A stretch of 64,000 bases of DNA, taken from NCBI GenBank assembly GCA_003574785.1, contig QORU01000004.1, forward strand, positions 62,001 through 126,000. Reading direction: 5' to 3'. Each line of letters starts with the position of its first letter. Positions within the stretch are counted from its first letter, which is position 1. Source of the DNA: Taklimakanibacter deserti. Lineage in GTDB: Bacteria; Pseudomonadota; Alphaproteobacteria; Rhizobiales; Aestuariivirgaceae. Under the pieces are notes generated by a model that saw nothing but the letters and a program-made list of their open reading frames with translations, was not told where the DNA came from and searched no databases. Of this stretch, positions 5,089-58,184 are shown in pieces. The position numbers and the translations under genes were made by a program.

Positions 5089-5118
5089 TTTTTCCTCCAT
5101 CTATCTTCGCAATTGATG

Positions 5119-8105: not shown

Positions 8106-8140
8106 GTTGAGACTCCTCCCATTAGACTTCACGCTTTTTT

Positions 8141-8800: not shown

Positions 8801-9717
8801 GCGCGTCTTCGATCCTGATCCGGGGCAAGGAGCGCCTCATAGGAGCGCGTGAGCGTGCTTCGCTCAGGAGCCGAAAGATCGACCAGCGGCGCCCGCATCC
8901 GGGCATAGGCGTCATCGCCATGCATATGCGCGACGAGCGCTTTCACCGCCGGCAAAACCGGATAGGAGGTTATCAGATTGACGACCGGCACGATCAGGGG
9001 GTTGTCATTGCGGTCATGGATCACGTCGCGCAGGAGCCAGGGCGCGAGATTCGCCAGGCCGCAGATCGATCCTTGCGCTCCCTTGCGCATCGCTTCGGCG
9101 AGATATCGCTCCTCACCGACGAGGATCGCCAATTCGCCATGCGCGGCGAGGAAGGTCTCAGTCGTGGCCTTGTCGCCGGAAGAATCCTTGATCCCGGCAA
9201 CCACGCCGGGAAAGGCTCGTTTCAGGCGGCCAACGAGATCGACCGACAGCGGGACGGCCGTTTGTCCTGGAATGTGATAGAGGATGATGCCGCGGGCGTC
9301 GCCGCCGATGCCCTCGATCACGCGCGAGAACCAGGCAAAAAGCCCGTCCTCGTCCGGCCCTTTGAAGTAATAAGGTGGTGCCAGCAGGAGGCCGCGCGCG
9401 CCGAAATCCAAAGCCAGCCGCGCCTGAGCGACGGCATCGACCAGCGTCGTCGCCGACACGCCGGCATAAAGCTGCTCGCCCGTCACACCGCTGCCGATCA
9501 TCCCGCCCAACATGCGGGCGCGTTCATCGATGCCGATCGAGAAGCCTTCGCCGGTCGTGCCAAAGAGGGTGATGCTGTCTGAGCCCTTGGCGAGGACGTG
9601 GTGTGCATGGCGCAAGAGGCGCGCCAGGTCGACCGATCCTTCCGCGTTGAAGGGTGTGATGAGGGCGGTGGAAAGACCGAAGATGTCTTGCTTTTTCATG
9701 TGTAACTGCATAGTCAT
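8797..9717 (-). CDS. Dihydrodipicolinate synthase/N-acetylneuraminate lyase family aldolase
   Basis: A 306-residue class I aldolase-type TIM barrel. It contains GTTGEG at 53-58, Tyr147 in LYHIPG and the Schiff-base Lys177 in AGIKDSSGD. The family condenses or cleaves pyruvate with aldehydes, or dehydrates keto-deoxy sugar acids. Being first in an operon with an acid-type TRAP importer and an FCD regulator favours catabolic cleavage of a 2-keto-3-deoxy acid over lysine biosynthesis. The start is uncertain: three in-frame ATGs occur within 7 codons and none has a strong ribosome site. Confidence 0.85.
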   Translation of the reverse strand: MTMQLHMKKQDIFGLSTALITPFNAEGSVDLARLLRHAHHVLAKGSDSITLFGTTGEGFSIGIDERARMLGGMIGSGVTGEQLYAGVSATTLVDAVAQARLALDFGARGLLLAPPYYFKGPDEDGLFAWFSRVIEGIGGDARGIILYHIPGQTAVPLSVDLVGRLKRAFPGVVAGIKDSSGDKATTETFLAAHGELAILVGEERYLAEAMRKGAQGSICGLANLAPWLLRDVIHDRNDNPLIVPVVNLITSYPVLPAVKALVAHMHGDDAYARMRAPLVDLSAPERSTLTRSYEALLAPDQDRRRA

Positions 9718-10020
9718 AACTTACTAACATGTTGCTCAGTTTTCTAGCTAAGGTCAAGTACCGAAACCTAAATTTGGAAGGTTTTCAACTGGACGCCTCG
9801 GGCGACCCGGTTCGGTGGTGTGCTCCGTCACGAGGCCGAGTTTACCCCTTCTGTTCAACTGCGACCTCTTCGTAGGCAGCCCCTTTGCCCACACACTGCC
9901 GAGCAGACAGGTGGGCCTGTCAGCGCCGTCCTCGAGAGCGATCAGGCCGACATGTTCGTTTCGCTTCCGTGCTGGCGACCAAGGCTTGTCATGGCAGCAG
10001 TGTCGCCGGAATATGCGATA
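9718..10020. other. Intergenic region without recognisable gene
   Basis: About 300 bp upstream of the aldolase operon and before the SGNH gene remnant. Small open frames here do not resemble any protein and lack ribosome sites. The operon promoter for the minus strand should lie in the AT-richer part at about 9718-9775, but no clear -35/-10 pair or palindrome could be assigned. Confidence 0.5.
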
Positions 10021-10140
10021 TACGGCGCCACCAATATCAATCTGCGCAACGTGGTGCCCGCTGACGATTGGCATGACGAGATACATCCCAATGACCGCGG
10101 CTTCGGAAAAACTGCCGCGAAATTGCGAGCGGCCATCTAG
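10021..10140 (+). pseudogene. 3' remnant of an SGNH hydrolase gene
   Basis: The 39 codons before the TAG at 10138 encode ATNINLRNVVPADDW, HDEIHPNDRGF and GKTAAKLRAAI. They match the C-terminus of the SGNH hydrolase at 415-1359 (NLRDVVPANEW, DDEIHPNDNGF) almost residue for residue. The catalytic block V is kept, but the nucleophile and oxyanion blocks are absent and the upstream sequence in any frame is unrelated. This is a decayed or truncated paralogue. The open frame reaching back to 9820 has no similarity before about 10021. Confidence 0.8.
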
Positions 10141-10150
10141 TATTTGCGAG

Positions 10151-10804
10151 TCATCGCGGGTTCGCCGCTAGCCGGCGCTCCAGGCGGCGCGACAGATCGG
10201 TCAAGGGATAGCATATGGCGAAATAGATCAGCGCCACCATCCCGTAGACCAGGAAGGGCTGGAAAGTCGCATTGGTCACGATCTGGGCGGTCCTTGTCAA
10301 CTCATGGTAGCCGACAATCGAGGCAAGGGCCGTGCTCTTGACCAGTTGGACGAGGAAACCCACGGTGGGCGGTATGGCGATGCGCAGGGCTTGCGGCAGG
10401 ATGACGAGGCGCAACTGCGCCAGGTAATGCAGCCCGAGGCTGGAGCTGCCGTCCCATTGGCCGCGCGGTATGGACTCGACGGCGCCGCGCCAGATGTCGG
10501 TGAGGAACGCGCTCGAATAGAAGGTCAGGCAGACCGCGGCGGCAAGCCAGGCCGAAACATCGATGCCGAGCCGCGGCAGGCCGAAATAGACCAGGAAAAG
10601 CTGCATCAGCAGCGGCGTGCTCTGGAACAGCTCGACATAGAGAGCGATGGTCCTTTGGACCCATTTGCCGAAGCCGAAGCGAAGCACGAGCAGGACCAGC
10701 GCCAGGATCCCGCCCCCGGCAAAGGCAATCGCCGAAAGCAGCAGGGTCCAGCGCCCGGCCAGCAGGAGATTGCGCGCTATGTCCCAGAGCGTGAAGTCGT
10801 TCAT
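10151..10804 (-). CDS. Polar amino acid ABC transporter permease (HisM/GlnP class)
   Basis: A 217-residue membrane protein with about five helices and the typical signatures ELFQSTPLLMQLFLVYFGLP, then GAVESIPRGQWDGSSSLGL and LPQALRIAIPP. These mark the amino acid-type permease family, including the EAA loop that contacts the ATPase. The start overlaps the stop of the companion permease (ATGA at 10801-10804). It is the last gene of its operon, so no ATP-binding protein follows; the ATPase must be supplied from elsewhere. Confidence 0.9.
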   Translation of the reverse strand: MNDFTLWDIARNLLLAGRWTLLLSAIAFAGGGILALVLLVLRFGFGKWVQRTIALYVELFQSTPLLMQLFLVYFGLPRLGIDVSAWLAAAVCLTFYSSAFLTDIWRGAVESIPRGQWDGSSSLGLHYLAQLRLVILPQALRIAIPPTVGFLVQLVKSTALASIVGYHELTRTAQIVTNATFQPFLVYGMVALIYFAICYPLTDLSRRLERRLAANPR

Positions 10805-11469
10805 TGCGTCCGCCCGGCAAACAGGCTGCGTCCGGCGAGCGCCAGCAATCGCCGCAGCAGCAAGGCGAGGATCAGATAGATGACCGTGACGACGAGATAG
10901 GTCTCGAAGCTGCGGAAATTGCGCGACTGGATGAGATCGGCCACATGGGTCAGATCGACGACGGCGATCTGCGAGACCACGGCCGATTCGAGCATGGTGA
11001 TGGTGATTTGCGCGACGAGAGCGGGATAGACAGTCGCCAAGGCCTGCGGCAGCACGATGAGCCCGAACACGCCGAGCCCATGCAGGCCCATGGCCCGGCC
11101 AGCCTCGGCCTGGCCGGGCGGTACCGCGTCCAATCCCGCTCTGATGATTTCGATCGCATAGGCAGTGAGATTGATGATCATCGCCAGGGCCGCGGCCGTG
11201 AGAGCGCTGAGCCTCAGGCCCAGACTCGGCAGGCCGAAGAAGATGAAGAACATCTGCACGATGAACGGCGTGTTGCGGATCAGCTCGACATAACCGGCAA
11301 TCAGCCGCCGCACCCAGTCGTTCTTGCTGCGCGCGGCGGCGGCGCCGACGATGCCCAAGGCAATGCCGGCAACCGATGCAAGAGCCGTCAAGCCCAGCGT
11401 GACCGTCGTGCCTTCCAGGAATAGACCGAGATACTGGACCAGCGCTCCGAAATCGAGCTGATAGCCCAT
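10801..11469 (-). CDS. Polar amino acid ABC transporter permease (HisQ/GlnP class)
   Basis: A 222-residue membrane protein. The signatures are ELIRNTPFIVQMFFIFFGLP, RAGLDAVPPGQAEAGRAMGL and LPQALATVYPAL. It pairs with the permease downstream to form the pore of an amino acid-type importer. It begins 8 nt after the stop of the binding-protein gene and overlaps the next gene by 4 nt, so the three are co-transcribed. Confidence 0.9.
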   Translation of the reverse strand: MGYQLDFGALVQYLGLFLEGTTVTLGLTALASVAGIALGIVGAAAARSKNDWVRRLIAGYVELIRNTPFIVQMFFIFFGLPSLGLRLSALTAAALAMIINLTAYAIEIIRAGLDAVPPGQAEAGRAMGLHGLGVFGLIVLPQALATVYPALVAQITITMLESAVVSQIAVVDLTHVADLIQSRNFRSFETYLVVTVIYLILALLLRRLLALAGRSLFAGRTQ

Positions 11470-12365: not shown

Positions 12366-12467
12366 GAGCATCGGCCCGAAAAGTGCGTGCGGTTTTCGGG
12401 CAAGCCGATGCGCAAAAACAAAGAGATAGAGCGCCGGGACGATTCCTTGTGAACGTCCGGCGCTCTA
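12366..12467. repeat. 102-bp dispersed repeat, copy 1
   Basis: This 102-bp block recurs in the same orientation at 28556-28657 with six mismatches. It has two parts: a hairpin with CCGAAAA...TTTTCGG arms and a distal hairpin with AGAGCGCCGG/CCGGCGCTCT arms. The last three bases (cta) form the TAG stop of the minus-strand esterase gene. The distal hairpin lies right after that stop and may terminate or protect the message. Confidence 0.85.
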
Positions 12468-13352
12468 CGGCAACCAGCGGTTCATGAACTCGCCCGCTTG
12501 CGCCAGCGCTTTGCGTCCGTCCGCGAGCTTGGCATTCCAGAGCGGCCATGCATGGATCATCTGCGGCCAGACTTCCAAAGTGACCGCAACGTCGGCAAGG
12601 GCCAGCGCCGCCGTGAGGCGTGTCGCATCATCGAGCAGCGTCTCCGCCGAACCCACCTGGATCAGCGTCGGTGGAAAACCGCGCAGCTCCGAAAACAAGG
12701 GCGAGATTTTGGGATCGCTGCGGCTGGTCCCGGCCGGAACATAGGCCGCCGCCAATTCTTCGAGGTAACCCTTATGGATGATCGGATCGACCGCATCCTT
12801 GAGCGCAAGCGAGGGACCGGACATGGTCAGATCCGTCCAGGGCGAGATGAGCCAGGCGCATGAAGGCTGGGCCTCACCGGCGGCGCGCAGACGGTTGATC
12901 AGCGCGATCGTGAGATTGCCGCCGGCACTGTCGCCGCCGACGACGATTTGTCCGGGCGCAACGCCCTGCGCGATGAGATACCGCCAGGCCGTCATGGCGT
13001 CCTCATGGGCGGCGGGAAACGGATGGTCCGGCGCCAGCCGATAGCCGACCGCCAATGTGCGCATCCGCGCGGCCCGACCCGCTTCGGTCACCAGGCGGCG
13101 ATGGCTCGAGATCGAGCCTGAGCAATAGCCGCCGCCATGGAAGAACAGGAGGACGCGGGAAGGATCGCTGCCGGGCGCCGTCGAAAACTCGCAGGCCAAC
13201 CCGCCGAGGTCGACGGCCTCGAGCTTTGCGTCATCGGCGATCGGCCAGACCGAGCCGACTTCATCGAGCCTTTGCCGTCTTTCGGCCCAGCCCACCGGGC
13301 GCGGCTTCGAGCTCAGCAACGTGCGGATCGCGTCGATCTCATGATGTGCCAA
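12465..13352 (-). CDS. HSL-family alpha/beta hydrolase (esterase/lipase)
   Basis: A 295-residue hormone-sensitive-lipase-type hydrolase. HGGG at 72-75 forms the oxyanion hole. GDSAGG holds the nucleophile Ser142, followed by Asp241 or Asp242 (ETLLDD) and His267 (QMIHAW). It should cleave small carboxylic esters in the cytoplasm. The frame opens with TTG at 13352; no better start exists without cutting into the fold. The stop codon is contributed by the dispersed repeat at 12366-12467. It lies 28 nt after an SDR gene on the same strand and before an amino acid-type importer. Confidence 0.88.
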   Translation of the reverse strand: MAHHEIDAIRTLLSSKPRPVGWAERRQRLDEVGSVWPIADDAKLEAVDLGGLACEFSTAPGSDPSRVLLFFHGGGYCSGSISSHRRLVTEAGRAARMRTLAVGYRLAPDHPFPAAHEDAMTAWRYLIAQGVAPGQIVVGGDSAGGNLTIALINRLRAAGEAQPSCAWLISPWTDLTMSGPSLALKDAVDPIIHKGYLEELAAAYVPAGTSRSDPKISPLFSELRGFPPTLIQVGSAETLLDDATRLTAALALADVAVTLEVWPQMIHAWPLWNAKLADGRKALAQAGEFMNRWLP

Positions 13353-13380
13353 AGGATTGCCGCTCCCTGCTCAGTTGCAC

Positions 13381-14130
13381 TCAGTACGTCGCCCTTCCCC
13401 CCGAGACGTCGAATACGGCACCCGTCGAGAAGGAACATTCTTCGCTGGCGAGCCAGGTGACAAGGCTTGCCACCTCATCGACGAGGCCGAAGCGCCCCAT
13501 CGGGATCTTCGACAGCATGAAGTCGATATGGGCTTGGGTCATCTGGTCGAAGATCGGCGTCTTGACCGCCGCCGGCGTCACGCAATTGGCCGTGATCCTC
13601 GTCTTCGCCAGTTCCTTGCCGAGCGATTTGGTCAAGCCGATCACTGCCGCCTTCGATGTCGAATAGGCCGGCGCATTGGGATTGCCCTCCTTGCCGGCGA
13701 TGGAGGCGATGTTGACGATGCGGCCATACTTCTGTGCTTGCATATACGGCACGATGGCCCGGCAGCAATAGTAGACGCCGTTCACATTGATATCGATCAC
13801 CTGGCGCCATTTCTCCGGCGGATAATCCCAGGTCGTCGCATTGGGTCCGGTGATGGCGGCACTCGTCACCAGCACGTCGATATGCCCGAAGGCCTTCACG
13901 GTCTGGGCCACGGCCTGGTTCACGCTGGTCTCGTCGCTGACATCGACTGCGACGGCAAGGGCGTTCCTGCCGAGCTTAGCTGCGGCATCCGACCCCGCTT
14001 TCGCATCCACGTCCCAGATCGCGGCCGCACCACCTTCTCCGAGGATGCGTTCGGCCACGGCGAACCCGATGCCGGAAGCACCCCCGGTGATGACGGCGAC
14101 GCGCCCCTTGAATCTATCGGCAAACTGCAT
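13381..14130 (-). CDS. Short-chain dehydrogenase/reductase (SDR)
   Basis: A 249-residue classical SDR. The cofactor motif TGGASGIG is at about 15-22, the active-site Ser143 in NIASIAG, and the YxxxK pair is Tyr156 and Lys160 in AYSTSKAAV. Asp40 after the second strand points to NAD(H) preference. It would oxidise an alcohol or reduce a ketone of unknown identity. The ATG at 14130 is preceded by GAGGGG, better placed than the ATG 21 nt upstream. It heads the operon that continues with the esterase and the amino acid-type importer. Confidence 0.9.
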   Translation of the reverse strand: MQFADRFKGRVAVITGGASGIGFAVAERILGEGGAAAIWDVDAKAGSDAAAKLGRNALAVAVDVSDETSVNQAVAQTVKAFGHIDVLVTSAAITGPNATTWDYPPEKWRQVIDINVNGVYYCCRAIVPYMQAQKYGRIVNIASIAGKEGNPNAPAYSTSKAAVIGLTKSLGKELAKTRITANCVTPAAVKTPIFDQMTQAHIDFMLSKIPMGRFGLVDEVASLVTWLASEECSFSTGAVFDVSGGRATY

Positions 14131-14260
14131 GCTACCCCTCGTCTTATGCAAGTGGCCGGGACAATTTCACGTGGCCGCCGGCAGTGCAAGTGATTAAACG
14201 CGTGACCGGCATTCCGGAATATGAGAAGCTGGCGATAAGTATGACAATTGGGAGGATCAC

Positions 14261-15013
14261 ATGAACAAGCCCGTTCACCCGGCACCCGCCGCCGATGCCA
14301 ACGTCATCCGCGTCCAACAGTTCGAATCCCCGGCCGGCGTGCCTTTGCTTTCCACGCAGATGCTCGCCACCGCCGATGGCGAGCTCAATCGCGAGCTCAA
14401 CCGCTTCCTGTTCGACCCGCCTTCCGATTCGACACTCCTCAAAGGCAAGCGGATCGCCATTTGCTGCACCAATGGGGTGGAAGAGGTCGAGATCCTGGGC
14501 GCCCACAGGTGGCTCTCCGAGCATGGCGCAACCGTCCATATCGTGGCGCCCAAGGCCGGTCCCTTGCCGCCGAGCTATGGCGTGAAGATGCCGCCCATTG
14601 CCGAGACTCATGTGCTCGCCATCCGCCTCATGGAGAATGGCGGCTGGCTCAAGATCGACCGCTATGTCAGCGAGGCCAAGGCGTCTGACTATGATGCCGT
14701 CATCCTGCCGGGCGGCTGCTGGAATCCGGACTTCCTGCGCGCCGACAAGGACGCCATCGCCTTCGTCCAGGCCATGCACGCGGCGGCGAAGCCCGTCTGC
14801 GGCATCTGCCACGGCCCCTGGGTGCTGATCAGCGCCAAGCTCCTCAAGGGCAAGAAGGCGACAGCGGTGTGGAACATCCACATTGATCTCGAGAATGCCG
14901 GCGCCACGGTGATCGACGAGCCCGTGGTCGTCGACGGCAATCTCATCACCGCACGCTTCCCCTATGACCTGCCGCGCATGGTCGATGCGCTGGTGAAGCA
15001 GCTGGTGAAGTAG
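14261..15013 (+). CDS. DJ-1/PfpI (class I glutamine amidotransferase-like) family protein
   Basis: A 250-residue protein with the DJ-1/PfpI nucleophile elbow VCGICHGPW, which places Cys183 and His184 in the active site. Glu77 in the EEVEILG block is the expected acidic partner. It is longer than the usual 170-190 residues because of an N-terminal extension of about 60 residues and an insertion at about 100-135. The family includes glyoxalases, deglycases and chaperone-like hydrolases, so the role remains open. GGGAGG precedes the ATG. It is divergent from the SDR operon, so the promoters share 14131-14260. Confidence 0.85.
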   Translation: MNKPVHPAPAADANVIRVQQFESPAGVPLLSTQMLATADGELNRELNRFLFDPPSDSTLLKGKRIAICCTNGVEEVEILGAHRWLSEHGATVHIVAPKAGPLPPSYGVKMPPIAETHVLAIRLMENGGWLKIDRYVSEAKASDYDAVILPGGCWNPDFLRADKDAIAFVQAMHAAAKPVCGICHGPWVLISAKLLKGKKATAVWNIHIDLENAGATVIDEPVVVDGNLITARFPYDLPRMVDALVKQLVK

Positions 15014-15137: not shown

Positions 15138-16082
15138 CTATCCCTTCACCTTCCACGTCTTCATCACGTCGAGCGTATGCGCAAAAGAGTGGATGCCGGC
15201 ATCGGAGCCGAGGCCCGTGGCCACCAGCCCGGCGGCGGCCTGGGCGAACCGCAAGGCCGTCTCGAGGTCCATCTTGTGATGAAGGGCGGTGATGAAGCCC
15301 GCATCGAAGGCATCGCCGCAGCCGGTCGTATCCACTACCTTGACCTCATAGGCGGGTGATTTGAGACGTGTTCCGTCCTTATGCGCATAGAAAGCGCCGT
15401 CGCCGCCCAGCGTGAAGACGCAAGCCTCAGCCCCACGATCGAGATAGAAGCGGGCGCAGTCTTCAGCCGTAGACTGGCCCGACATGTCGTGCGCCTCTTC
15501 GATCGAAGGCATGAAATAATCGATGTAAGGCAAGAGCGGTCCGACGATGGCGAGCGTCTCAGGCGACGCCGCGATGAGATCGAAGGTGACGGTCCGCCCG
15601 CGCCTTTTCGCTTCCTTGAGCAAGGTGAGGCTCGCCGGCCCGTCGAGCTTCTTGAGGAGCCCGGTGCCGCCCAGATGGATGATCGGCGCGTCGAACACCT
15701 GGTCATAGGCTGACGCCGGGACGTCGAAATGATCGGAAGCGCCCCTCACATGGAGCGCCGGCCGCTCGCCATTCGGCCTCACATTGAGGATGGTCGCGGA
15801 TGTGGGAATGCCGGGCAGCCGCTGCATGGCCGAGACATCGGCGCCATGCTTCTCGAGTGTCAGCAGCACCCAGTCGGCCTTCTCGTCGTCGCCGACGGCG
15901 CCCACCGCCAGGCTCTTGAGGCCGAGCTTCGCCGTATCGATGACCGTGCCGCCCGCGGTGCCGGCGACGGTCAGCCTGATCTCCTCGATGAAATCGACAT
16001 TGCCGCGCTCGGGGATGCGGCTGACCGGGCGGCCCAATATATCGAGGATATAGAGCCCGATGACGGAGACGTCGTAGCGCAT
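15138..16082 (-). CDS. PfkB-family carbohydrate kinase
   Basis: A 314-residue ribokinase-like kinase. The second PfkB signature DTTGCGDAFDAGF is at 251-263 with the catalytic base Asp257 and the anion hole GCG. An N-terminal AGTAGGTVIDTAKLG block contacts the sugar. The family phosphorylates sugars, sugar acids or nucleosides with ATP. It begins directly after the stop of the small membrane protein gene and is the last gene of the importer operon that starts at 22282, so it probably phosphorylates the imported sugar or a product made from it. Confidence 0.92.
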   Translation of the reverse strand: MRYDVSVIGLYILDILGRPVSRIPERGNVDFIEEIRLTVAGTAGGTVIDTAKLGLKSLAVGAVGDDEKADWVLLTLEKHGADVSAMQRLPGIPTSATILNVRPNGERPALHVRGASDHFDVPASAYDQVFDAPIIHLGGTGLLKKLDGPASLTLLKEAKRRGRTVTFDLIAASPETLAIVGPLLPYIDYFMPSIEEAHDMSGQSTAEDCARFYLDRGAEACVFTLGGDGAFYAHKDGTRLKSPAYEVKVVDTTGCGDAFDAGFITALHHKMDLETALRFAQAAAGLVATGLGSDAGIHSFAHTLDVMKTWKVKG

Positions 16083-16523
16083 CTATTTGCGGCGGCCGAG
16101 CCAGGTGACGCCTGCGGCGAAGCACAAAGCGGCGACCGCCAGGGCCCAGACGAGCGGCTGCAAGTAGAAAGGCGGCGTCGCGAGCTGGACCTTGCCGGCG
16201 GTGGTGGCGGGATCGGGCGGCTTCAGAAAGAACACGCCATAGAGATGCGCGGCCGCAATCGAGATGAGGAGGACGATGCAGAAGATCATCGCCACCACCA
16301 GCGCCACGGTGATGATGGTCTTGATCTTCGTGCCGGGCTTCGCCAGCGGCAGCAGATTGTTGACGAGCCCGGCCAGGACAACGAGGCCCGATCCGATGGC
16401 GAAGAGTTTTAGGCTCAGCGGCTGGAAGATCAGGATCAGCGCCAATATGCCGAGCCCGATGATGAAGGCTTCGAGCCGCAAGGCGCCCGCGGGGCTCAAG
16501 ATCTTGTCCGGCGTCCCGCTCAT
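16083..16523 (-). CDS. Small four-helix membrane protein of the importer operon
   Basis: A 146-residue protein with four hydrophobic segments at about 20-36, 38-58, 68-92 and 120-143. I do not recognise a named domain. Its ATG overlaps the stop of the ATPase gene (ATGA) and its stop abuts the kinase start, so it belongs to the importer operon. Rhizobial glycerol importers (glpSTPQUV) also encode a small membrane protein beside two ATPases and two permeases, which makes an accessory subunit a reasonable guess. That comparison comes from family knowledge, not from an alignment done here. Confidence 0.7.
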   Translation of the reverse strand: MSGTPDKILSPAGALRLEAFIIGLGILALILIFQPLSLKLFAIGSGLVVLAGLVNNLLPLAKPGTKIKTIITVALVVAMIFCIVLLISIAAAHLYGVFFLKPPDPATTAGKVQLATPPFYLQPLVWALAVAALCFAAGVTWLGRRK

Positions 16524-17608
16524 CCCCTCACCGCCTTTCCGTCTTCGCCGAAAATATGCGTCTGGCTCGGATCGGCGCGCAGATGGAGCTTCTCGCCGAT
16601 CTTGAATTTGACGTCGCGCGGCACCACGACCCTTATATCGGAGGCATCCGGCGTGCGCGCATGGACGAGCGTCTCCGCCCCCATGGGCTCGATCAGCTCG
16701 GCATGGGCGATGATCGTGTCCCGGGCGCCCTGCCCCACCGGCGTGAAGGCCCGGGGCCTAATGCCCAGCGTCACTTGCGACGGCTTGAGCTTGGAAACCG
16801 CGGGATTGACTTCGAGCTCGACCCGCTCGCCGCCGAACTGGATCGTCGCCTTGGCGCCGGCGACGCCTTCGAGCTTGCCCTTGACCAGGTTCATTTGCGG
16901 CGTGCCGATGAAGCTCGCCACGAAGACATTGTTGGGCTTGGTGAACACCTGATGCGGCGTGCCGATCTGCTCGATGACCCCGTCGCGCATGATGGCGATG
17001 CGATCGGCCATGGTGAGGGCCTCGAGTTGGTCATGCGTCACGATGACGGTCGCCTTGGAGAGGCCCGACAGCACTTCCTTGATCTGGCCGCGCATCGAAT
17101 GGCGCAATTCGACATCGAGCCGCGACAGGGGCTCGTCGAACAGGAAGCAGTTCGGATCGCGCACGATCGCGCGGGCCACGGCGATGCGCTGCTTCTCGCC
17201 TTCCGACACCTGCCCCGGCATACGCTCGAGAACGTCGGTCAGATGCAGGATCTCCGCCACCTTCTTGACCCGCCGGTCGCGATCGGGCTTGGCGAGTTTC
17301 TCGTAATGCAGCGGCATGGCGATGTTCTCGCCGACCGAGAGGGCCGGATAGAGCGCATAGAACTGGAAAACCATCGCGATGTCGCGCTTTTCCGGCGGCA
17401 ATTCGTTCATGCGCTTGCCGGCGATGATGATGTCGCCGGCGGTCACTCTTTCGAGACCGGCGATCATGCGCAGGGTCGTCGTCTTGCCGCAGCCCGAGGG
17501 GCCGAGGAGGCAAACGACCTCACCGGCGGCGACACTGAGATCGGCATCCTTGACGGCGGTGAAATCGCCGAACCGCTTGGTGATCTTGCGGGCTTCGATG
17601 GTCGACAT
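16520..17608 (-). CDS. MalK-like ABC ATPase, subunit B (degenerate signature motif)
   Basis: A 362-residue ATPase with a C-terminal OB-fold (TOBE-like) domain. Walker A is GPSGCGKTT with Lys42, the Q-loop is Gln82, Walker B ends FDEP with Glu159, and the H-loop His192 is in VTHDQ. The signature is VSEGE at 134-138 instead of LSGGQ: the second Gly is Glu. In an ABC dimer this motif completes the partner's nucleotide site, so the partner's site should be weak while this subunit's own Walker A/B/His set is intact. It differs clearly from the ATPase at 21194-22282 in the same operon. Confidence 0.92.
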   Translation of the reverse strand: MSTIEARKITKRFGDFTAVKDADLSVAAGEVVCLLGPSGCGKTTTLRMIAGLERVTAGDIIIAGKRMNELPPEKRDIAMVFQFYALYPALSVGENIAMPLHYEKLAKPDRDRRVKKVAEILHLTDVLERMPGQVSEGEKQRIAVARAIVRDPNCFLFDEPLSRLDVELRHSMRGQIKEVLSGLSKATVIVTHDQLEALTMADRIAIMRDGVIEQIGTPHQVFTKPNNVFVASFIGTPQMNLVKGKLEGVAGAKATIQFGGERVELEVNPAVSKLKPSQVTLGIRPRAFTPVGQGARDTIIAHAELIEPMGAETLVHARTPDASDIRVVVPRDVKFKIGEKLHLRADPSQTHIFGEDGKAVRG

Positions 17609-17612
17609 GCGT

Positions 17613-18557
17613 CTATCTCTTCACGGTGCCGAAGGTGACGCCGCGCAGCAGGTGGTTCTGCAGGAAGAAGGTCACCAGGAAGACGGGGATGAGGAACAGC
17701 GTTTCGATCGCCGCGAGTAGCCCCCACAGCACGCCGATGCCGCCGCCCGCCACCGCCTGGTTCATGGCGACCGGCACGGTGCGGGTGTCGACGCCGGTCA
17801 AGAGCAGCGCGAACAGGAACTCGTTCCAGGTGAGGATGAGGCCGAAGACGAAGGTCGCGGCGAGGCCCGCCAGCACTTGCGGCAGGCAGATCTTGAAGAA
17901 CACCTTGACCTCGCTCGACCCGTCGATCCGTGCCGCATCCTCGACATCGGGCGACAATTCATCGAAGAAGCTCTTCATCATCCAGATCGTGAACGGCAGG
18001 TTGAAGGCCGTATAGAGCAGGATGATGCCGATATAGGAGCCGGCAAGGCCGGTGACCCGGAACATCAGGATGATCGGGATGATCACCACGATCGCCGGCA
18101 GCATGCGGGTGGTGAGGATGATGAAGAGATAGGTGTCGTTGCCCTTCAGCGCATAGCGCGAGAAGCCATAGGCCGCGAGCGTGCCGATCACCAAGGCGAG
18201 CAGCACCGAGGTGCCGGCGATGAAGATCGAATTGAAGAAGAACCGGTCGAAGCCGGTGCTCTCGACGGCGCCGCCCGTGGTGTAGGCGCGGGAAAAGACC
18301 GACGTGAAATTCTCCAATGTCGGCGTGAAGACATATTGCTCGGGGATGAGGCCGAAGAAGCTCGTCGGGAAGAACCGCGGCGGCACCGCCAGCGCTTCCG
18401 TCTGCAGCTTGAAGGAGGTGATGATGATGAGGAGCACGGGCAGGAAGTAGATCAGGCTGATGATCGCGGTGAGGAGCGTGTGGCCCCAGCCCGCCTCGCC
18501 CACGCCCGATGCCTTGCGGAAGCCCAGCCTTTCCCAGATCGAAGTCACATCAGCCAT
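17613..18557 (-). CDS. ABC carbohydrate importer permease (MalG class)
   Basis: A 314-residue membrane protein with six predicted helices after a cytoplasmic N-terminus of about 28 residues. The EAA loop is VEDAARIDGSSEVKVFF followed by LPQVLAG, and it couples the pore to an ATPase. It starts 3 nt after the preceding permease stop and is followed after 4 nt by ATPase B. It belongs to the importer of an unassigned carbohydrate whose catabolic genes are encoded divergently. Confidence 0.92.
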   Translation of the reverse strand: MADVTSIWERLGFRKASGVGEAGWGHTLLTAIISLIYFLPVLLIIITSFKLQTEALAVPPRFFPTSFFGLIPEQYVFTPTLENFTSVFSRAYTTGGAVESTGFDRFFFNSIFIAGTSVLLALVIGTLAAYGFSRYALKGNDTYLFIILTTRMLPAIVVIIPIILMFRVTGLAGSYIGIILLYTAFNLPFTIWMMKSFFDELSPDVEDAARIDGSSEVKVFFKICLPQVLAGLAATFVFGLILTWNEFLFALLLTGVDTRTVPVAMNQAVAGGGIGVLWGLLAAIETLFLIPVFLVTFFLQNHLLRGVTFGTVKR

Positions 18558-18560
18558 CGT

Positions 18561-19622
18561 TCAATTCCCCTGGGCGCGCCGGTTGGCGATATAGAGATAG
18601 AGATTGGTGAGCACGATCACCACGAAGAGCAGCAGATAGGAAAGTGCCGCACCCTCGCTGGTCTTGTTCTGCTCATTGGCAATGCGGATGACATGGTAGG
18701 AAATCGTCATCGTGTCATTGCCGCCCTTGGTCAGCAGGATGACGAGATCGGCGAGCTTGAAGGCCTCGATGGTGCGGAACAGCAGCGCCAGCATCAGGAG
18801 GCCGCGTATATAGGGGAAGGTGATCGTCCAGAAGCGCCGCCAGCTCGAGACCCGGTCGATGGCCGCTGCCTCATAGAGATATTTGGGCACCGAGACGAGA
18901 CCGGCCAGCACCAGCAGCATGACGAAGGGCGACCACATCCAGGCATCGGCGAAGACGATGCCGGCGACGGCGCCTGCCTTGGTCGACATCAAGATGAACT
19001 GCTCGCCGTTCCAGGCCTTGATCGCCTGGCTGAGGAGGCCGAAGGTCGGGTCATAGTAATAAGAGAAGAACACGCCGACCGCGACCACCGAGAGCATCAT
19101 CGGGGTGAGCACCAGGATGAGCAGGTATTTGCGCAACGGGAACTGCTTGGCGAAGAGCACGGCGAGCAGGAAGCCGACGATCATCTGGGCCGAGACGGTG
19201 AGCACCACGAACATCGCGGTATTGGTGAGATTGGCCCACAGTTCCGGCGCCTTGAGGTCGTTGGTGAGGAGCTGCTCGTAGTTCCTGAGGCCCACGAAGC
19301 GGATCGTCTGCTGGTTGCTCTGATAGGCGAAGAAGGAGAGGCCGAGCGACCACAGCAGCGGAAAGATGTTCATGACGAACAGCACCGCGATCGCCGGCGA
19401 AACCAGGAGGCCACCATAATAATGGCGGCGATAGGCATTGACGACGAAGGCGGCCGCGACCATCGCCGCCATGGCGCCCGTCACCCAGAAGGCGGCATTG
19501 GCCGGCAGGGCCAGTATGGCGAGGATGGACACGGCAAGGCCCACCGCGATCGCGAGCTTCCAATTGTCGGGAGCGATCGTCGTGAACTGCGGCGGCGGCC
19601 GGTCTATGGCAACAGTCGTCAT
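18561..19622 (-). CDS. ABC carbohydrate importer permease (MalF class)
   Basis: A 353-residue membrane protein with more hydrophobic segments at the N-terminus than a minimal permease (about eight in total). Its EAA loop, YEAAAIDRVSSWRRFWTITFP, has Arg where most members have Gly (IDG). This could reflect docking onto a non-identical ATPase subunit, though that is only a suggestion. It lies between the binding-protein gene and the MalG-class permease. Confidence 0.92.
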   Translation of the reverse strand: MTTVAIDRPPPQFTTIAPDNWKLAIAVGLAVSILAILALPANAAFWVTGAMAAMVAAAFVVNAYRRHYYGGLLVSPAIAVLFVMNIFPLLWSLGLSFFAYQSNQQTIRFVGLRNYEQLLTNDLKAPELWANLTNTAMFVVLTVSAQMIVGFLLAVLFAKQFPLRKYLLILVLTPMMLSVVAVGVFFSYYYDPTFGLLSQAIKAWNGEQFILMSTKAGAVAGIVFADAWMWSPFVMLLVLAGLVSVPKYLYEAAAIDRVSSWRRFWTITFPYIRGLLMLALLFRTIEAFKLADLVILLTKGGNDTMTISYHVIRIANEQNKTSEGAALSYLLLFVVIVLTNLYLYIANRRAQGN

Positions 19623-19699
19623 CTAAAATTATGCCTGCTGAATCCGTGAGACAAAGAGGACGCCCGCAGTTTCCTGCGCGCGTCCCCTGAGGCGTTTCG

Positions 19700-21133
19700 T
19701 TACTGGATCAGGCCCGCTTCCGAGAGCAGGTTCTGCTGGAACTTCGCTATGTTGTCGAGCGTCGTCTTGGCGTCCTGCTTGCCGGTGATGGCGAGATCGA
19801 ACTGGTCCTGCTGCTGGGTGAGCAGCTCGAAGAACTGCGGCACGTGCCACACGTCCTTCTGCCAGTCGAGGCTCCCCGCCCAGGCGCGGTTCCATGGCCG
19901 GAAGGTCACATAGGCCGGATCGCTATAGACCGACTTGATCGCCGACTGTCCGCCCTTCGAGGCATATTCCGTCTGCACCGGCTTCGACAGCCACCATTTC
20001 ACGAAGTCGAGCGCTTCCTTGGTCTGCGTGTCGGTGTTCCAGGTCATCAGCACGAAGGGCTGGCCGCCGATATTCGACCAGCGGATGATCTTGCCGTCGG
20101 CGCCGCGGGTTCCCGGCATCAGGCCGAAAGCGATCTTGTCGGAGACTTTCGATGTCTTGGGATCGAGCGAGGCTTCGCCGAGACCGATCCAGTCGATATT
20201 GATGGCGACCTTGCCTTCGCGGAACAACTCGTCGGACTTGAAGATGTCCATCGTTCCGGTCTTGGCGACGGGCGGCATATACTGGATGAGGCGCAGATAG
20301 TGATCGAGCGCCTTGACCGCTTCCGGCGAATTGACCACGCCTTCCGCTTGGCCCTTGGGCGCCTGGGTTTCGTCCCAGACATTGCCACCCTCCTGCCAGA
20401 TGAAGCCGTTGATCTGCATCGAGGAGAAGTCGTAGCCCTTGCCGGCCTGGTAGGCGATGCCGTAGAAATCGTCATCCGCCGGCTTGCCGGCTAGGTTCTC
20501 GCCCTTCTTGCGCTGGAAGAACTGGCCGATATTCTCGAACATCTCCCAGTCCATGTCGTCGAGCTCTTCCGGCGTGCACGGCAGCTTCTTGTTGAACTTC
20601 GCCTGGAAGTTCTTCTGCTCTTCCTCGTTGCACAGGATGTCCTTGCGCGCGAAGCTCACCAGCACGTCCGGGAACTGCGGGAAGCCGTAATAGTTCGGCG
20701 TCTTGTGCGGATAAGTCGAATAGGCATTGAGCGGGGCCGGATGCATGTCGTCCATCGCCGCCTTCAGGCCCGGATCGGCATCGATGAACTCGTTGAGCTT
20801 CTTGTAATAGCCGCCTTCGACGAAGGCGCCGAGCCACTGCGAGTCCGACACTGCCATGTTGTATTTCTGCTCGCCTGAGGTGAGCGAGGCGTTGAGGCGG
20901 GTGTAGTAGTCGGGCCACGGGATGAAGTCGATGTCGAGCTTCACCGTGTTGCCTGACGGCGCTTTATACTGCTTGTCGAACATGTCCTTCATGATGCGGG
21001 TCGGCGGCCAGTCCGGCACCGCCATCTTGAGCACCACTTCCTCGGCCGAGGCGGCCCCGAGGAACGTGCCGCTCATCAGGGTCGCGGCAAGCGCGGCCCC
21101 GGCAAAGGACGTCAACTTATACTGCCAACTCAT
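19700..21133 (-). CDS. ABC carbohydrate importer substrate-binding protein
   Basis: A 477-residue periplasmic protein with a Sec signal peptide cleaved near residue 30 (GAASAEEV). Tryptophan-rich stretches such as FIPWPDYYTRLN, GFIWQEGGNVW and WWLSKPVQ are consistent with stacking against sugar rings in family 1 binding proteins. It is encoded 60 nt after ATPase A and before the permeases. The ligand is not determined by sequence; the linked PfkB kinase, epimerase-like enzyme and acid-sugar dehydratase point to a monosaccharide, polyol or sugar acid. Confidence 0.92.
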   Translation of the reverse strand: MSWQYKLTSFAGAALAATLMSGTFLGAASAEEVVLKMAVPDWPPTRIMKDMFDKQYKAPSGNTVKLDIDFIPWPDYYTRLNASLTSGEQKYNMAVSDSQWLGAFVEGGYYKKLNEFIDADPGLKAAMDDMHPAPLNAYSTYPHKTPNYYGFPQFPDVLVSFARKDILCNEEEQKNFQAKFNKKLPCTPEELDDMDWEMFENIGQFFQRKKGENLAGKPADDDFYGIAYQAGKGYDFSSMQINGFIWQEGGNVWDETQAPKGQAEGVVNSPEAVKALDHYLRLIQYMPPVAKTGTMDIFKSDELFREGKVAINIDWIGLGEASLDPKTSKVSDKIAFGLMPGTRGADGKIIRWSNIGGQPFVLMTWNTDTQTKEALDFVKWWLSKPVQTEYASKGGQSAIKSVYSDPAYVTFRPWNRAWAGSLDWQKDVWHVPQFFELLTQQQDQFDLAITGKQDAKTTLDNIAKFQQNLLSEAGLIQ

Positions 21134-21193
21134 GTCCAGTTCTCCTCCCTAGTGGATCTAGGCACTTCTCTTTTCTTCGCGTGCTTGGACGGC

Positions 21194-22282
21194 TCACCTC
21201 AAGGCGATACCGTCCTCGACGCGGAAGACATGGATTTTCCTTGCATCGACCTTGATCGGCAGGCGGTCGCCGAGCTTGATCTCGCTCGCCCGCGATTCCG
21301 GCAGAAGGATCCGCAGATTGTCGGTCTTCTCGCCGAGCGAAACGATGGTGACATCGCCCAACGGCTCGAGCAGCTGCACCGGCGCCGAAAGTTGGACCGC
21401 CTGGCCGGACGCGATTTCGAGATCGGCCGGGCGCACGCCCATGACGACCTTGTCGCCCGCTTTCGCCTTGATCTTACGGGCGAGCTCGAAGCTGCCGAAG
21501 CCGGTCTTCAGCGCTTCGCCGCTTTCGCCCACCGTCGCCTCGAGCAGGTTCATATGCGGCGCGCCGATCTTGGCCGCGACATAGACGTCGTTGGGCTGGT
21601 CATAGAGCTCGTCGGGCGATCCCTTCTGCACCACCGCACCATCGCGCATCACCGCGATGACCTCGCCCATCGACAGGGCCTCGAGCTCATCGGGCGTCGC
21701 GTAGATGATGGTCATGCCGAACTGGCGGTGCAGGCGCTTGAGCTCGGCGCGCATGTCGTGGCGGAGCTTGGCGTCGAGATTGGTCAGGGGCTCGTCGAGC
21801 AGGAGGATATTGGGGCGTCGGATCAAGGATCGTCCGAGCGCCACGCGCTGCTGCTCGCCGCCCGACAGCGTATTGGGCTTGCGCTCGAGCCGGTGCGCGA
21901 GCTTCAGCATCTCGGCCGTCTCCTTGACCCGCTTGTCGATCTCCGGCCGCGCGACATTCGCCTCGCGCAAGGGATAGGCGAAATTCTCGTAGACGGTGAG
22001 ATGCGGATAGAGCGCGAAGGACTGGAACACCATCGACACGCCGCGCGACTTGATCGGCGCATGGGTCGCATCGACGCCATGCAGCGCCACCCTGCCCGTA
22101 TCCGGGATCACGAGGCCGGAGATAGTGCGCATAGTCGTCGTCTTGCCGACCGAGCTCGGCCCGAACAGGGCGAAGAACTGGCCTTCGGCGACATCGAAGG
22201 TCAGCCGGTCGAGCGCTTTCACGCGGCCATAGGCTTTCGACACGCCTTCGAGGCTGACGGCGGAGGCTTTATTGGGGGACAT
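21194..22282 (-). CDS. MalK-like ABC ATPase, subunit A (H-loop His replaced by Pro)
   Basis: A 362-residue ATPase with a C-terminal regulatory OB-type domain. It has Walker A GPSSVGKTT with Lys47, Q-loop Gln87, a complete signature LSGGE at 139-143, and Walker B LLDEP with Glu164. The H-loop position reads YATPDE, so the switch histidine is Pro197. I checked this codon (CCC) on the minus strand. ATP hydrolysis at this subunit's own Walker site should be impaired, whereas its signature can complete the partner's site. I chose the ATG at 22282, preceded by GAGG, over the GTG two codons upstream. It is the first gene of the minus arm. Confidence 0.92.
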   Translation of the reverse strand: MSPNKASAVSLEGVSKAYGRVKALDRLTFDVAEGQFFALFGPSSVGKTTTMRTISGLVIPDTGRVALHGVDATHAPIKSRGVSMVFQSFALYPHLTVYENFAYPLREANVARPEIDKRVKETAEMLKLAHRLERKPNTLSGGEQQRVALGRSLIRRPNILLLDEPLTNLDAKLRHDMRAELKRLHRQFGMTIIYATPDELEALSMGEVIAVMRDGAVVQKGSPDELYDQPNDVYVAAKIGAPHMNLLEATVGESGEALKTGFGSFELARKIKAKAGDKVVMGVRPADLEIASGQAVQLSAPVQLLEPLGDVTIVSLGEKTDNLRILLPESRASEIKLGDRLPIKVDARKIHVFRVEDGIALR

Positions 22283-22384
22283 GGCCACCTCAGCCGATAT
22301 GAGTCGTGCTGGGGCAAACTGGCTTCATCGACGCGAAATCCTCCCATTTACGGCGCTGCGCTGCGCCTTTGTTATTGATCAAAC

Positions 22385-22524: not shown

Positions 22525-22560
22525 ATGGTCGACCCAGATCAGTCCAGGGAGGAACCTTTC

Positions 22561-23448
22561 ATGCATCTTTCGACACATAACTGGATGCGCGCCGAGCCGC
22601 TCGAGACCACTTTGGCTCGCATCAAGAAGTTTGGTTATGAGAGCATCGAAATCTCCGGCGAGCCCACCCAATACAATGTGAACGACACCCGCAAGCTGCT
22701 GAAGCAATATGGCATCCGCTGCTGGGGCTCGGTGACGCTCACCCTCGCCGACCGCAATCTCGCCGCCAGGGACGAAGCCCAGCGCGCCAAGACCGTCGAT
22801 TACATGAAGAGCGTCGTCACCATGGTGAACGAGCTTGACGGCGAGATCATCACCCTCGTGCCGGCGACCGTCGGCAAGATCACGCCCGATGGGACGCCCG
22901 AAGAAGAGTGGCAGTGGCTCATCGAAGGCGTGACCGAGGTCTATCAGCACGGCAAGAAAAAAGGCGTGCGCATCGCCATCGAGCCGCTCAACCGTTTCGA
23001 GACCTATATCCTGAACCGCGCCGACCAGGCTTTGGCGCTGGCCGAAGCGGTCGGGCCTGATTGCGGCGTGTGCATCGACGCCTTCCATCTCAATATCGAG
23101 GACGCCGACATGTTCGCCTCGATCAAGAAGGCGGGAAAACGCCTCTATGACTTCCACATCGCCGACAACAACCGCATGGCGCCGGGCCAGGGGGCGCTCG
23201 ACTGGCCGAAGATCGTGAAAACCTTGAAGGAGGCGGGCTATGACGGAGCACTGACCGTCGAGTTCGTGGCGCCGGTCGACCGGACGCCGGCCACCAAATA
23301 TCCCGATGCCGTCGAGAAGAACCCGGTCGATATCTCGCCCGAGCAGTTGAAGTTTATCCAGGATCACGGCTCGAGCCTGTTGAGCGAGGAATTCTACACC
23401 ATGCTCGTCAAGAAATCGGCCGAAACGATTCTGCCGTTGATCAAATGA
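22561..23448 (+). CDS. Xylose isomerase-like TIM-barrel epimerase (tagatose/psicose 3-epimerase type)
   Basis: A 295-residue TIM-barrel enzyme. Glu141 (IEPLNRFE), Asp173 (CIDAFH), His199 (DFHIADN) and Glu234 (VEFVAP) have nearly the spacing of the four metal ligands in D-tagatose/D-psicose 3-epimerases, and GQGALDW is also typical. It would shift a ketose or related sugar between epimers using a divalent metal. The start at 22561 has AGGGAGGA at the right distance; the ATG 36 nt upstream does not. It is the first gene of the plus arm, divergent from the importer. Confidence 0.85.
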   Translation: MHLSTHNWMRAEPLETTLARIKKFGYESIEISGEPTQYNVNDTRKLLKQYGIRCWGSVTLTLADRNLAARDEAQRAKTVDYMKSVVTMVNELDGEIITLVPATVGKITPDGTPEEEWQWLIEGVTEVYQHGKKKGVRIAIEPLNRFETYILNRADQALALAEAVGPDCGVCIDAFHLNIEDADMFASIKKAGKRLYDFHIADNNRMAPGQGALDWPKIVKTLKEAGYDGALTVEFVAPVDRTPATKYPDAVEKNPVDISPEQLKFIQDHGSSLLSEEFYTMLVKKSAETILPLIK

Positions 23449-23500
23449 CCGGCCGAGCGGGCCCGCATCGGGCGAGCCCGCTCGTAACGGCCGGGAGAAC

Positions 23501-24676
23501 ATGATGAAGATCGAACGGATCGAAGCCACCTGGGTGTCCATACCGATCGCTCAAGATCGTCAGCACAGAAGCGATTTCGGGCAGATCAGGACGTTTGATT
23601 CGGCGATCCTGCGCATCGACACCGATGCCGGCATCACCGGCTGGGGCGAAGGCAAGAACGCCGCCGGCAGTGCCGGCACCTATGCCGGGCTCGTCACCCT
23701 CATCAACAAGGAATTCGCCCCGCGCCTGATCGGCAAGGACGCGCGGGACATTTCCGTGATCTGGGATTCGCTTTACAACGGCGTGCGCGCCCATCATGCG
23801 ACGGCGCGCGGACATTCGATGCCCGACATGGCGCGGCGCGGCCAGACCATCGCCGCGATCAGCGCCATCGACATCGCCCTCTGGGACATCGCCGGAAAAT
23901 CCATGAACGCCCCGGTCTGGCGCCTGCTCGGCGGACGCAAGGCCGAAGCCATGCCGGCCTATGCCTCGGGCGGCTGGGCCGATGCCCAGACCATTGGCGA
24001 TCAGCTCTCGGGCTATGTGAAGCAAGGCGGCTTCAAGGCGGTGAAGATGCGCGTCGGCGCCATGGATGGGGCGCCGCAGGTCAGCGCCGAGCGCGTCAAG
24101 GCGGCGCGCGCGGCCTTAGGGCCCGACATCGAGATCATGGTCGATTCGCACGGCACCTTCACCGTGGCCGAGGCCAAGCGCTTCGCCCATCTGGTCGCCG
24201 ACTGCAATCTCGCCTGGTTCGAGGAGCCGGTGACCGCCGATGACAAGGCCGGCATCGCCGAAGTGCGCGCCTCGGCCATGATCCCAATCGCCGCCGGCGA
24301 AAGCGAGTTCACCCGCTTCGATTTCCGCGACCTCATCACCCAGCGCGCCGTCGACATATTGCAGCCCGATCTCGCTATATGCGGCGGCATCACCGAGGCG
24401 CGCCGCATCGATGCGCTGGCGGCCGCGTTCAATCTGCGGCTGGCGCCGCATCTGTGGGCCGGGGCCCCCGCCTTCTTTGCCGGGCTCCATCTCGCCGCCG
24501 CGAGCCCGTCGAGCTATATTCTCGAATATTCGCTCGGCGCCAATCCGATGCTGCATGATCTCATCGAGGAGAAGGTCGAGGTGAAGGACGGCATGATCAC
24601 GATCCCCGATCGGCCGGGCCTGGGAATCACGCCGCGCGAGGACATTATCGCCAAACATGCGGTGCATTTCGGATGA
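23501..24676 (+). CDS. Mandelate racemase/muconate lactonising enzyme family, probable acid-sugar dehydratase
   Basis: A 391-residue enolase-superfamily enzyme. The metal ligands are Asp215 (VDSHG), Glu241 (WFEEP) and Glu267 (AAGES). Lys179 and Lys182 form the KxxK base motif (FKAVKMRVG), and His317 in APHLWAG pairs with Asp290. That set matches the mandelate racemase subgroup, in which most members dehydrate acid sugars to 2-keto-3-deoxy acids. The exact sugar is not predictable. Two adjacent ATGs occur; the second, at 23504, is better spaced from GGGAG. Its stop overlaps the regulator start (ATGA). Confidence 0.88.
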   Translation: MMKIERIEATWVSIPIAQDRQHRSDFGQIRTFDSAILRIDTDAGITGWGEGKNAAGSAGTYAGLVTLINKEFAPRLIGKDARDISVIWDSLYNGVRAHHATARGHSMPDMARRGQTIAAISAIDIALWDIAGKSMNAPVWRLLGGRKAEAMPAYASGGWADAQTIGDQLSGYVKQGGFKAVKMRVGAMDGAPQVSAERVKAARAALGPDIEIMVDSHGTFTVAEAKRFAHLVADCNLAWFEEPVTADDKAGIAEVRASAMIPIAAGESEFTRFDFRDLITQRAVDILQPDLAICGGITEARRIDALAAAFNLRLAPHLWAGAPAFFAGLHLAAASPSSYILEYSLGANPMLHDLIEEKVEVKDGMITIPDRPGLGITPREDIIAKHAVHFG

Positions 24677-25410
24677 ACGAGCATCGCGACCTGGTTTCGG
24701 AACTGGCGCTCTTCTTCCTGCAGAGGAAATACGAGCCGGGCGAGCGCGTGCCGTCGGAACGCGAGCTTGCCGAAAGGTTCAAGGCTGGCCGCGGCCTGGT
24801 GCGCGAGGCCTTGGCCTATCTCGAGGCGCTGAGGGTCATCGACCGGCGCGCCAAATCCGGCATCTATATGTCGAGCGATTCGGCGAGCGTCGAGGCCTTG
24901 GCCCTCTTCGCCCAGATCGGCGTGCCGCTGCAGGCCGAAGAGGTGCGCCAGTCGAACGAGATGCGCCGCATCCACGAGATCACCGCGGTCAGGCTCGCTT
25001 GCGAGCGCGCGACGCTGGAGAATTTCGACCGTATGCGCGCGGTCCTCGCCTCGTCCCTCAAGCGCATCGAAGCGCAAGAGCCGATCGACATCGAGGACCG
25101 CGATTTCCATCTCGAGATCGTCAATGCCACGCAGAACAATGTCTTCTACCGCATCGTGCGCATCTTCTACCTGATGACGGCCGAGCGCCGGCGCATCTAT
25201 TTCCAGCGCCCCGAACGCTGCCGCGAGTCGCATAATGAGCATATCCGCATCTTCGAGGCGATCGCCAGACGCGATCCGGTGGAGGCGATGGGCCTCATGG
25301 ATGCGCATCTCAAAGGTGTCGAGAGCTACTGGACCGGCCTTCTCGACAAACCGCCCTCACCCGAGAAGCCGCAGCCCGAAGCCGCCTGGCTGCGCCATAT
25401 CACGAGCTGA
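24673..25410 (+). CDS. FadR-subclass GntR regulator with FCD domain
   Basis: A 245-residue protein. The winged helix spans about 8-72 (YEPGERVPSERELAERFKAGRGLVREAL) and the FCD domain about 90-225, with the metal-binding pattern D140-H144...H189...H212. Regulators of this subclass bind TGGTNNNACCA palindromes, and two such sites lie in the divergent promoter region at 22385 and 22510. It is therefore the likely repressor of both the importer and the catabolic arm, released by a pathway acid. It is coupled to the dehydratase gene. Confidence 0.9.
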   Translation: MNEHRDLVSELALFFLQRKYEPGERVPSERELAERFKAGRGLVREALAYLEALRVIDRRAKSGIYMSSDSASVEALALFAQIGVPLQAEEVRQSNEMRRIHEITAVRLACERATLENFDRMRAVLASSLKRIEAQEPIDIEDRDFHLEIVNATQNNVFYRIVRIFYLMTAERRRIYFQRPERCRESHNEHIRIFEAIARRDPVEAMGLMDAHLKGVESYWTGLLDKPPSPEKPQPEAAWLRHITS

Positions 25411-56167: not shown

Positions 56168-56176
56168 CATCCCTCC

Positions 56177-57184: not shown

Positions 57185-57197
57185 GTTCTGTCCCCTC

Positions 57198-58181: not shown

Positions 58182-58184
58182 CGT

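Follow-up and report, generated by a model that had tools for sequence, protein, structure and literature searches.

The maltose importer is the textbook model of import powered by two identical ATP sites, and its ATPase, MalK, is a homodimer in which both sites are identical and conform to the consensus. How this arrangement fares when one importer operon encodes two different MalK-like ATPases is the question raised by a minus-strand gene cluster of Taklimakanibacter deserti (Alphaproteobacteria; Rhizobiales; Aestuariivirgaceae), which lies on a stretch of 64,000 nucleotides of contig QORU01000004.1 (positions 62,001 to 126,000 of the forward strand; assembly GCA_003574785.1), referred to here as the window. 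Its two ATPases, A and B, are encoded by separate, unfused genes (364 and 362 amino acids). Both contain every domain of MalK (ABC_tran, OB_MalK and TOBE_2), an architecture that they share with MalK and UgpC, the ATPases of CUT1 importers and their best family matches; their best matches among solved sequences are likewise MalK-type sugar ATPases. Unlike the MalK homodimer, however, the pair derives from two diverged genes whose products are 37% identical. Here we describe an asymmetry between the ATP-site motifs of A and B that is real, is fixed in the sampled relatives and belongs to a broader pattern to which one family is an exception, and we propose how such a pair might work.

Motif changes in the ATP sites of A and B

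A carries Walker A GPSSVGKTT, Q-loop VFQSF, signature LSGGE, Walker B LLLDEP, D-loop NLDA and H-loop ATPDE; the corresponding motifs of B are GPSGCGKTT, VFQFY, VSEGE, FLFDEP, RLDV and VTHDQ. In A, the signature is intact, the H-loop histidine is replaced by proline—Pro199 from the GTG start or, as an earlier note on this DNA correctly had it, Pro197 when counted from an internal ATG at 22282—and serine stands at position four of the Walker A consensus of ABC proteins, GxxGxGK[ST]. In B, His192 and Walker A are canonical, the D-loop has Arg instead of Asn, and the signature (V134-S-E136-G137-E138) has glutamate in place of the first glycine. The note was right about His192 and VSEGE but had assigned the glutamate to the second glycine, which is retained as Gly137; its operon span of 16520 to 22282 places both genes properly but ends short of the GTG start of A, at 22288.

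In a head-to-tail dimer, one subunit contributes the Walker A and B motifs and the A-, Q- and H-loops to an ATP site, and the other contributes the signature (PMC7756269). Mapped in this way, four changes fall in one composite site and none in the other, counting the D-loop of B, which by analogy is placed less surely in the same site as the B signature. The note's central observation, that both defects lie in a single composite site and leave the other standard, is upheld and extends to the Walker A serine and the D-loop arginine, which it had missed. By logic, a complete consensus site arises only in an A·B pair: AA would be without any H-loop histidine and BB would have two altered signatures. 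The altered site, site 1, retains the Lys, Thr, Gln, Asp and Glu residues and the aromatic A-loop residue. The catalytic glutamate is present in both subunits (Glu166 in A, Glu159 in B); its loss from Walker B, which has been called the hallmark of degenerate exporter sites (PMC7544095), is seen in neither A nor B.

Conservation in relatives and parallels in other transporters

A genome scan yielded 40 loci, of which 18 (L001–L018, 63–86% identity) are close relatives of A. In wider searches of overlapping sets, 9 of 150 genomes from the order had a match at E ≤ 1e-90, and at E ≤ 1e-85 so did 9 of 385 from the class and 3 from the 398 of the phylum; among these last three, the match in G150 (L070/L086, 43%) is to an ordinary ATPase whose motifs are intact and which is no orthologue of A. 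B lies in the same operon as A in all 28 relative loci with enough contig, and five further A loci (L010, L015, L016, L073 and L079) end too early on their contigs to show it. The final sets comprised 232 records, with 96 two-ATPase pairs in a first count that named families by motif. As that naming is circular, families were reassigned by sequence score (best match at least 200 bits and at least 25% over the next), which gave the same result.

All 34 sequence-assigned A-type genes have proline at the histidine position, and all 29 B-type genes have xxEGE with the histidine retained. In each of the 29 pairs, the window included, A has lost the histidine and the Walker A glycine and kept its signature, and B shows the reverse, such that all changes lie in one composite site and the other is fully consensus; the non-random placement that the note had claimed for the histidine and signature changes is thus borne out in pairs assigned blind to the motifs. 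Some latitude exists around this core: the A signature is LSGGE in 27 pairs and ASGGE in 2, its Walker A residue is Ser in 19 and Ala in 10, and the signature serine of B is Ala or Gly in 7. Among the best 120 of 4522 A-like proteins, 120 have the proline and an intact signature, and among the best 120 of 7934 B-like proteins, 120 have the signature glutamate and the histidine; an extra Walker A change occurs in 2 of these 240 (PPSSVGKTT, A-like; GPSGCCKTT, B-like). Both genes are under purifying selection, with ratios of nonsynonymous to synonymous substitution (dN/dS) against four relatives of 0.14–0.19 for A and 0.105–0.125 for B. These conservation counts are not independent, the relatives having been gathered by similarity to A, to GlpS and to the GlpS-like (S) subunits of the LSVN and DhaK-linked families described below. 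At L012 and L018, an ATPase upstream of A was paired with it under looser gap limits and falls outside the 4.5 kb limit of the final count.

The closest parallel is the glycerol importer GlpSTPQV of rhizobia and their relatives, which also has two MalK-like ATPases in one importer operon and the same degenerate layout. Sequence assigned 46 GlpS/GlpT pairs, 45 of them fully readable; glycerol kinase and glycerol-3-phosphate dehydrogenase genes adjoin four annotated plasmid loci, L094 has DUF2160 only and the other pairs are assigned by sequence. In all 45 readable pairs, the GlpS histidine is Thr or Ser and the GlpT signature is replaced (LTADx, LSADx or LxPDx, with D-loop VIDP), the GlpS signature LSGGQ and the GlpT Walker A and histidine are intact, and the GlpS Walker A glycine is replaced in 43; the co-occurrence of histidine loss and signature loss that the note had proposed to look for here is therefore present. 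The A/B importer nevertheless differs in several respects. Rhizobium etli GlpS and GlpT are each 35% identical to their counterparts A and B, the glycerol operons run S-T-P-Q-DUF2160-V (L091–L093 and L095; binding protein first in L094) in place of the order found here, the GlpSTPQV permeases form a clade separate from those of the A/B family, and neither glpD nor glpK was found among the matches of the six neighbouring genes tested (12465–15013 and 22525–25410). By sequence, the importer has the paired S/T asymmetry without glpD/glpK, DUF2160 or close identity, and appears to work like GlpSTPQV without being a member of it. The glp genes are reported for glycerol transport, and the available texts do not comment on their ATP sites (PMC11223650, PMC7186790).

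A third family, LSVN (four pairs), shows graded changes that always lie within one composite site, with the histidine kept: L113 is altered in the signature only, L114 also in the partner Walker A, and L090 and L096 additionally in the D-loop and in the catalytic glutamate, which is Asp. For comparison we used 46 MalK-like ATPases without a second one in the sequence covered around them, namely 4 orthologues of A on short contigs, 1 of GlpT type (L227) and 41 others, although only 4 of the 46 have at least 4.5 kb of sequence on each side, so that lone status is uncertain and a distant partner possible. Of the 41 others, 40 are unchanged at every scored position, one of them (L169) being a DhaK-family T subunit, the GlpT-like role, with LAGGD, at a second signature position that was outside the scoring. 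The exception, at 2702–3799 (minus strand) of L199, has Glu for the Q-loop Gln (VFENY) and otherwise intact scored motifs. The adjacent ATPase pairs at L129–L131, which have intact motifs, went into the count as 'other' pairs; from their similar spacing, L129 and L131 each read as two neighbouring transporters, as gene content shows for L130. The chance that all of four changes fall in one of two sites is 1/8 per family, which, leaving out the A/B family, gives 1/64 for two families, or about 1/16 without the D-loop; as the family changed in both sites (below) stands outside this product, the statistic is only suggestive of one-site confinement.

Beyond MalK-type proteins, the pair resembles the exporters TM287/288, TAP, CFTR and ABCG5/G8 in having two different nucleotide-binding domains with one consensus and one degenerate site, an arrangement described for many exporters (PMC7756269). 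Changes in the signature and Walker A are combined in the degenerate site of ABCG5/G8 (PMC7756269). The note's likening to exporters holds as far as this layout goes; A/B differ in being part of an importer, in keeping the catalytic glutamate in the degenerate site, here that of A, and in the change of His to Pro. Its remark that such a layout is unusual for a sugar importer was too strong, as one degenerate ATP site has been suggested from sequence for the fused importer ATPases RbsA and NupO (PMC11466899). In those proteins two nucleotide-binding domains share one chain and the Walker A lysine is lost, whereas A and B are separate MalK-type proteins with OB and TOBE domains and keep the lysine. 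Within the partial texts available from the open-licence literature, we found no account of such a site for GlpS/GlpT or for other importers of MalK type. Importers of the RbsA type had been described with degenerate sites before.

A predicted single-site heterodimer and its rivals

The motifs and their fixed distribution among relatives are directly established, as are purifying selection on both genes and their location in one operon; we consider it likely that A and B form an obligate head-to-tail heterodimer in a CUT1-type importer, with a degenerate, ATP-binding site 1 and a consensus site 2 that drives the cycle. The two proteins would be the nucleotide-binding subunits of a single importer. 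Site 1, made up of the Walker motifs and H-loop of A and the signature and probably the D-loop of B, would probably still bind ATP because of the residues that it retains, and would hydrolyse it slowly or never, its H-loop histidine being gone and VSEGE lying opposite. Site 2, in which the Walker motifs and His192 of B meet LSGGE of A, is fully consensus and would power the cycle, with hydrolysis predicted there only. By analogy with exporters, in which ATP in the degenerate site is spoken of as glue (PMC7756269), hydrolysis at site 2 may proceed with site 1 serving as a hinge.

Several observations weigh against this proposal. In A, Glu166 is present and Walker A still fits the general pattern GxxxxGK[ST], leaving slow hydrolysis at site 1 possible, and the D-loop of B is placed less firmly because the supporting contact, between the TM288 D-loop and the degenerate-site nucleotide, is termed atypical by the review on which the placement relies (PMC7756269). 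In a fourth family, the DhaK-linked importers (Ruegeria, Agrobacterium and Alloyangia loci), whose permeases are nearest and which also have two MalK-like ATPases per operon, the ATP motifs are mostly intact, unlike those of A/B: across 13 pairs, S is intact in all and the T signature is LSGGD in 7, LAGGD in 4 and LSSGD or LTSGD in 2. Both signature glycines and the other scored motifs are thus intact in 11 of 13 (4 of the 11 with Ala for the signature Ser), the remaining two pairs being altered in the T signature only, and two ATPase genes alone therefore do not mean a degenerate site. In a fifth, FGGY-kinase-linked family (L217 and L230, the latter at 7948–10889), both composite sites are changed, by 4 versus 3 and 3 versus 3 changes; one subunit has Glu for the Q-loop Gln together with QLEP, and the other LSNGQ, DDP, VTQDY and NVDA. 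One-site confinement is therefore not universal. Across two-ATPase importers at large, the comparison that the note had called for thus comes out one-sided in A/B, GlpS/GlpT and LSVN, but mostly intact in the DhaK-linked and two-sided in the FGGY-linked families. Its heterodimer with one hydrolytic site fits the sequence tests, including the presence of B beside A, with this last family as the counter-example to one-site confinement.

An alternative is that both composite sites hydrolyse, the proline and Walker A serine of A and the VSEGE of B being tolerated or compensated with little mechanistic effect. The catalytic Glu, Walker Lys, Q-loop Gln and Walker B Asp retained in A and B are compatible with this, and a heterodimeric importer offers a precedent: Escherichia coli DppD and DppF, whose motifs are called functional, both hydrolyse with DppA present, and single Glu mutants of each retain ATPase activity (PMC12136057). 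Tolerated changes sit poorly, however, with replacements that never vary among the 29 pairs and are matched on opposite subunits, as they likewise are in 45 of 45 readable GlpS/GlpT pairs, and with the retention of all scored motifs in 40 of 41 other MalK-like ATPases that have no partner in the sequence covered, and we regard this account as improbable. Less probable still, to the point of being hardly credible, is that A and B never pair and instead form AA and BB homodimers serving as alternative or shared ATPases, perhaps for a second transporter at 2004–5100. That transporter has a binding protein and two permeases without a MalK-like ATPase of its own in the window, and MalK-like ATPases are numerous in relatives (32 and 17 OB_MalK matches in two genomes); yet neither homodimer would have a complete site, and A and B occur together at every locus with enough contig.

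A further possibility, which we think unlikely but would not dismiss as readily, concerns origin: after duplication of a MalK gene, one redundant site may have decayed neutrally, with matching losses, until a ratchet locked the heterodimer and left a degenerate site without special function. The graded states of L113, L114, L090 and L096 look like stepwise decay, dN/dS is higher for A than for B, and A-type proteins are less alike than B-type proteins in 369 of 406 comparisons, as GlpS is relative to GlpT in 941 of 990. Free decay should vary, however, whereas the replacements are frozen in the best-listed relatives (all 120 A-like proteins have Pro and all 120 B-like proteins have Glu), and in the DhaK-linked family it is the S subunit that is better conserved (S lower in 0 of 78 comparisons). 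Neutral decay would in any case leave the predicted one-site mechanism unchanged.

Operon setting and origin of the degeneration

The operon (Table 1) reads A-SBP-P1-P2-B-TM, followed by a PfkB-family kinase gene, where SBP is the solute-binding protein, P1 and P2 are permeases and TM is a small hydrophobic protein. It has the parts of a CUT1 (MalK-type) importer: a nucleotide-binding domain with OB and TOBE domains, two BPD_transp_1 permeases and an SBP_bac_1/8 protein. Judging from the kinase and the enzymes encoded nearby, the substrate may be a sugar, a polyol or a sugar acid. The small hydrophobic protein recurs in relatives of the operon and has no match in Pfam or NCBIfam; in the one comparison made, with the DUF2160 protein of L091, no similarity emerged, and we rejected it as a DUF2160 relative. 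Small extra proteins are also found in glycerol operons (DUF2160) and in DhaK-linked operons (hypothetical proteins of about 60–70 residues).

Table 1. The importer operon of the window: genes, coordinates and assigned features
Gene product	Position	Strand	Features
ATPase A	21194..22288	-	GTG start; Walker-side-degenerate, GlpS-like role; Pfam ABC_tran, OB_MalK, TOBE_2
Periplasmic solute-binding protein	19700..21133	-	SBP_bac_8 / SBP_bac_1; signal-peptide-like N-terminus judged by eye
Permease P1, MalF/UgpA-like	18561..19622	-	BPD_transp_1
Permease P2, MalG/UgpE-like	17613..18557	-	BPD_transp_1
ATPase B	16520..17608	-	Signature-side-degenerate, GlpT-like role; ABC_tran, OB_MalK, TOBE_2
Small hydrophobic protein, 146 aa, probably membrane	16083..16523	-	Hydrophobicity judged by eye
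PfkB-family sugar kinase, operon end	15138..16082	-	Kept in many, not all, relatives

Elsewhere in the window, the binding protein and permeases at 2004–5100 (minus strand) constitute a second CUT1 transporter. A hidden Markov model scan of the window for MalK-like ATPases matched A and B only, and this transporter may borrow an ATPase or have its own gene outside the window. At 55055–59237 (minus strand) lie genes for an E1 dehydrogenase component, a transketolase-like beta subunit, a lipoyl-domain alpha/beta hydrolase and an NAD-kinase-like protein, a cluster that we take to resemble an acetoin dehydrogenase operon.

Trees were used to ask how often the degeneration arose. In an ATPase tree of 107 chosen rows with the motif columns removed, each S and T group occupies one side of a branch, except the DhaK T group, which contains L169; the deep order is unresolved, GlpS and GlpT cluster at a support of only about 50, and approximately unbiased (AU) tests reject none of the groupings A + GlpS, B + GlpT, A + B and all S (p 0.52–0.63). 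Permease trees (54 and 49 rows drawn from 56 selected loci), which have SH-aLRT support only and carry long-branch warnings, unite the A/B and DhaK-linked families, at a support of 99 in the F tree and of 92 in the G tree; in the latter, a long-branch warning flags this very join. In the F tree, the LSVN family joins the permease of a locus labelled single (98) and the glycerol family lies outside the A/B and DhaK-linked pair, within the next larger group (84). Together with the intact Walker A of L113, these permease trees, quick as they are, suggest that degeneration arose more than once.

We tentatively extend this, with more doubt than conviction, to the view that CUT1 importers with two ATPases form a broad class, within which the MalK homodimer has repeatedly—at least three times, in A/B, GlpS/GlpT and LSVN—become a single-site heterodimer, maybe spending one ATP per molecule imported. 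If true, the intact and graded families would represent intermediate stages, and it could be tested directly what import costs and what a silent ATP site does. Annotation by best family match, as UgpC or MalK, hides the split between A and B. A matched, frozen one-site change in relatives of MalK would reveal whether two rounds of hydrolysis are required for each import cycle, a question for which GlpS/GlpT and the graded and intact families provide natural comparisons.

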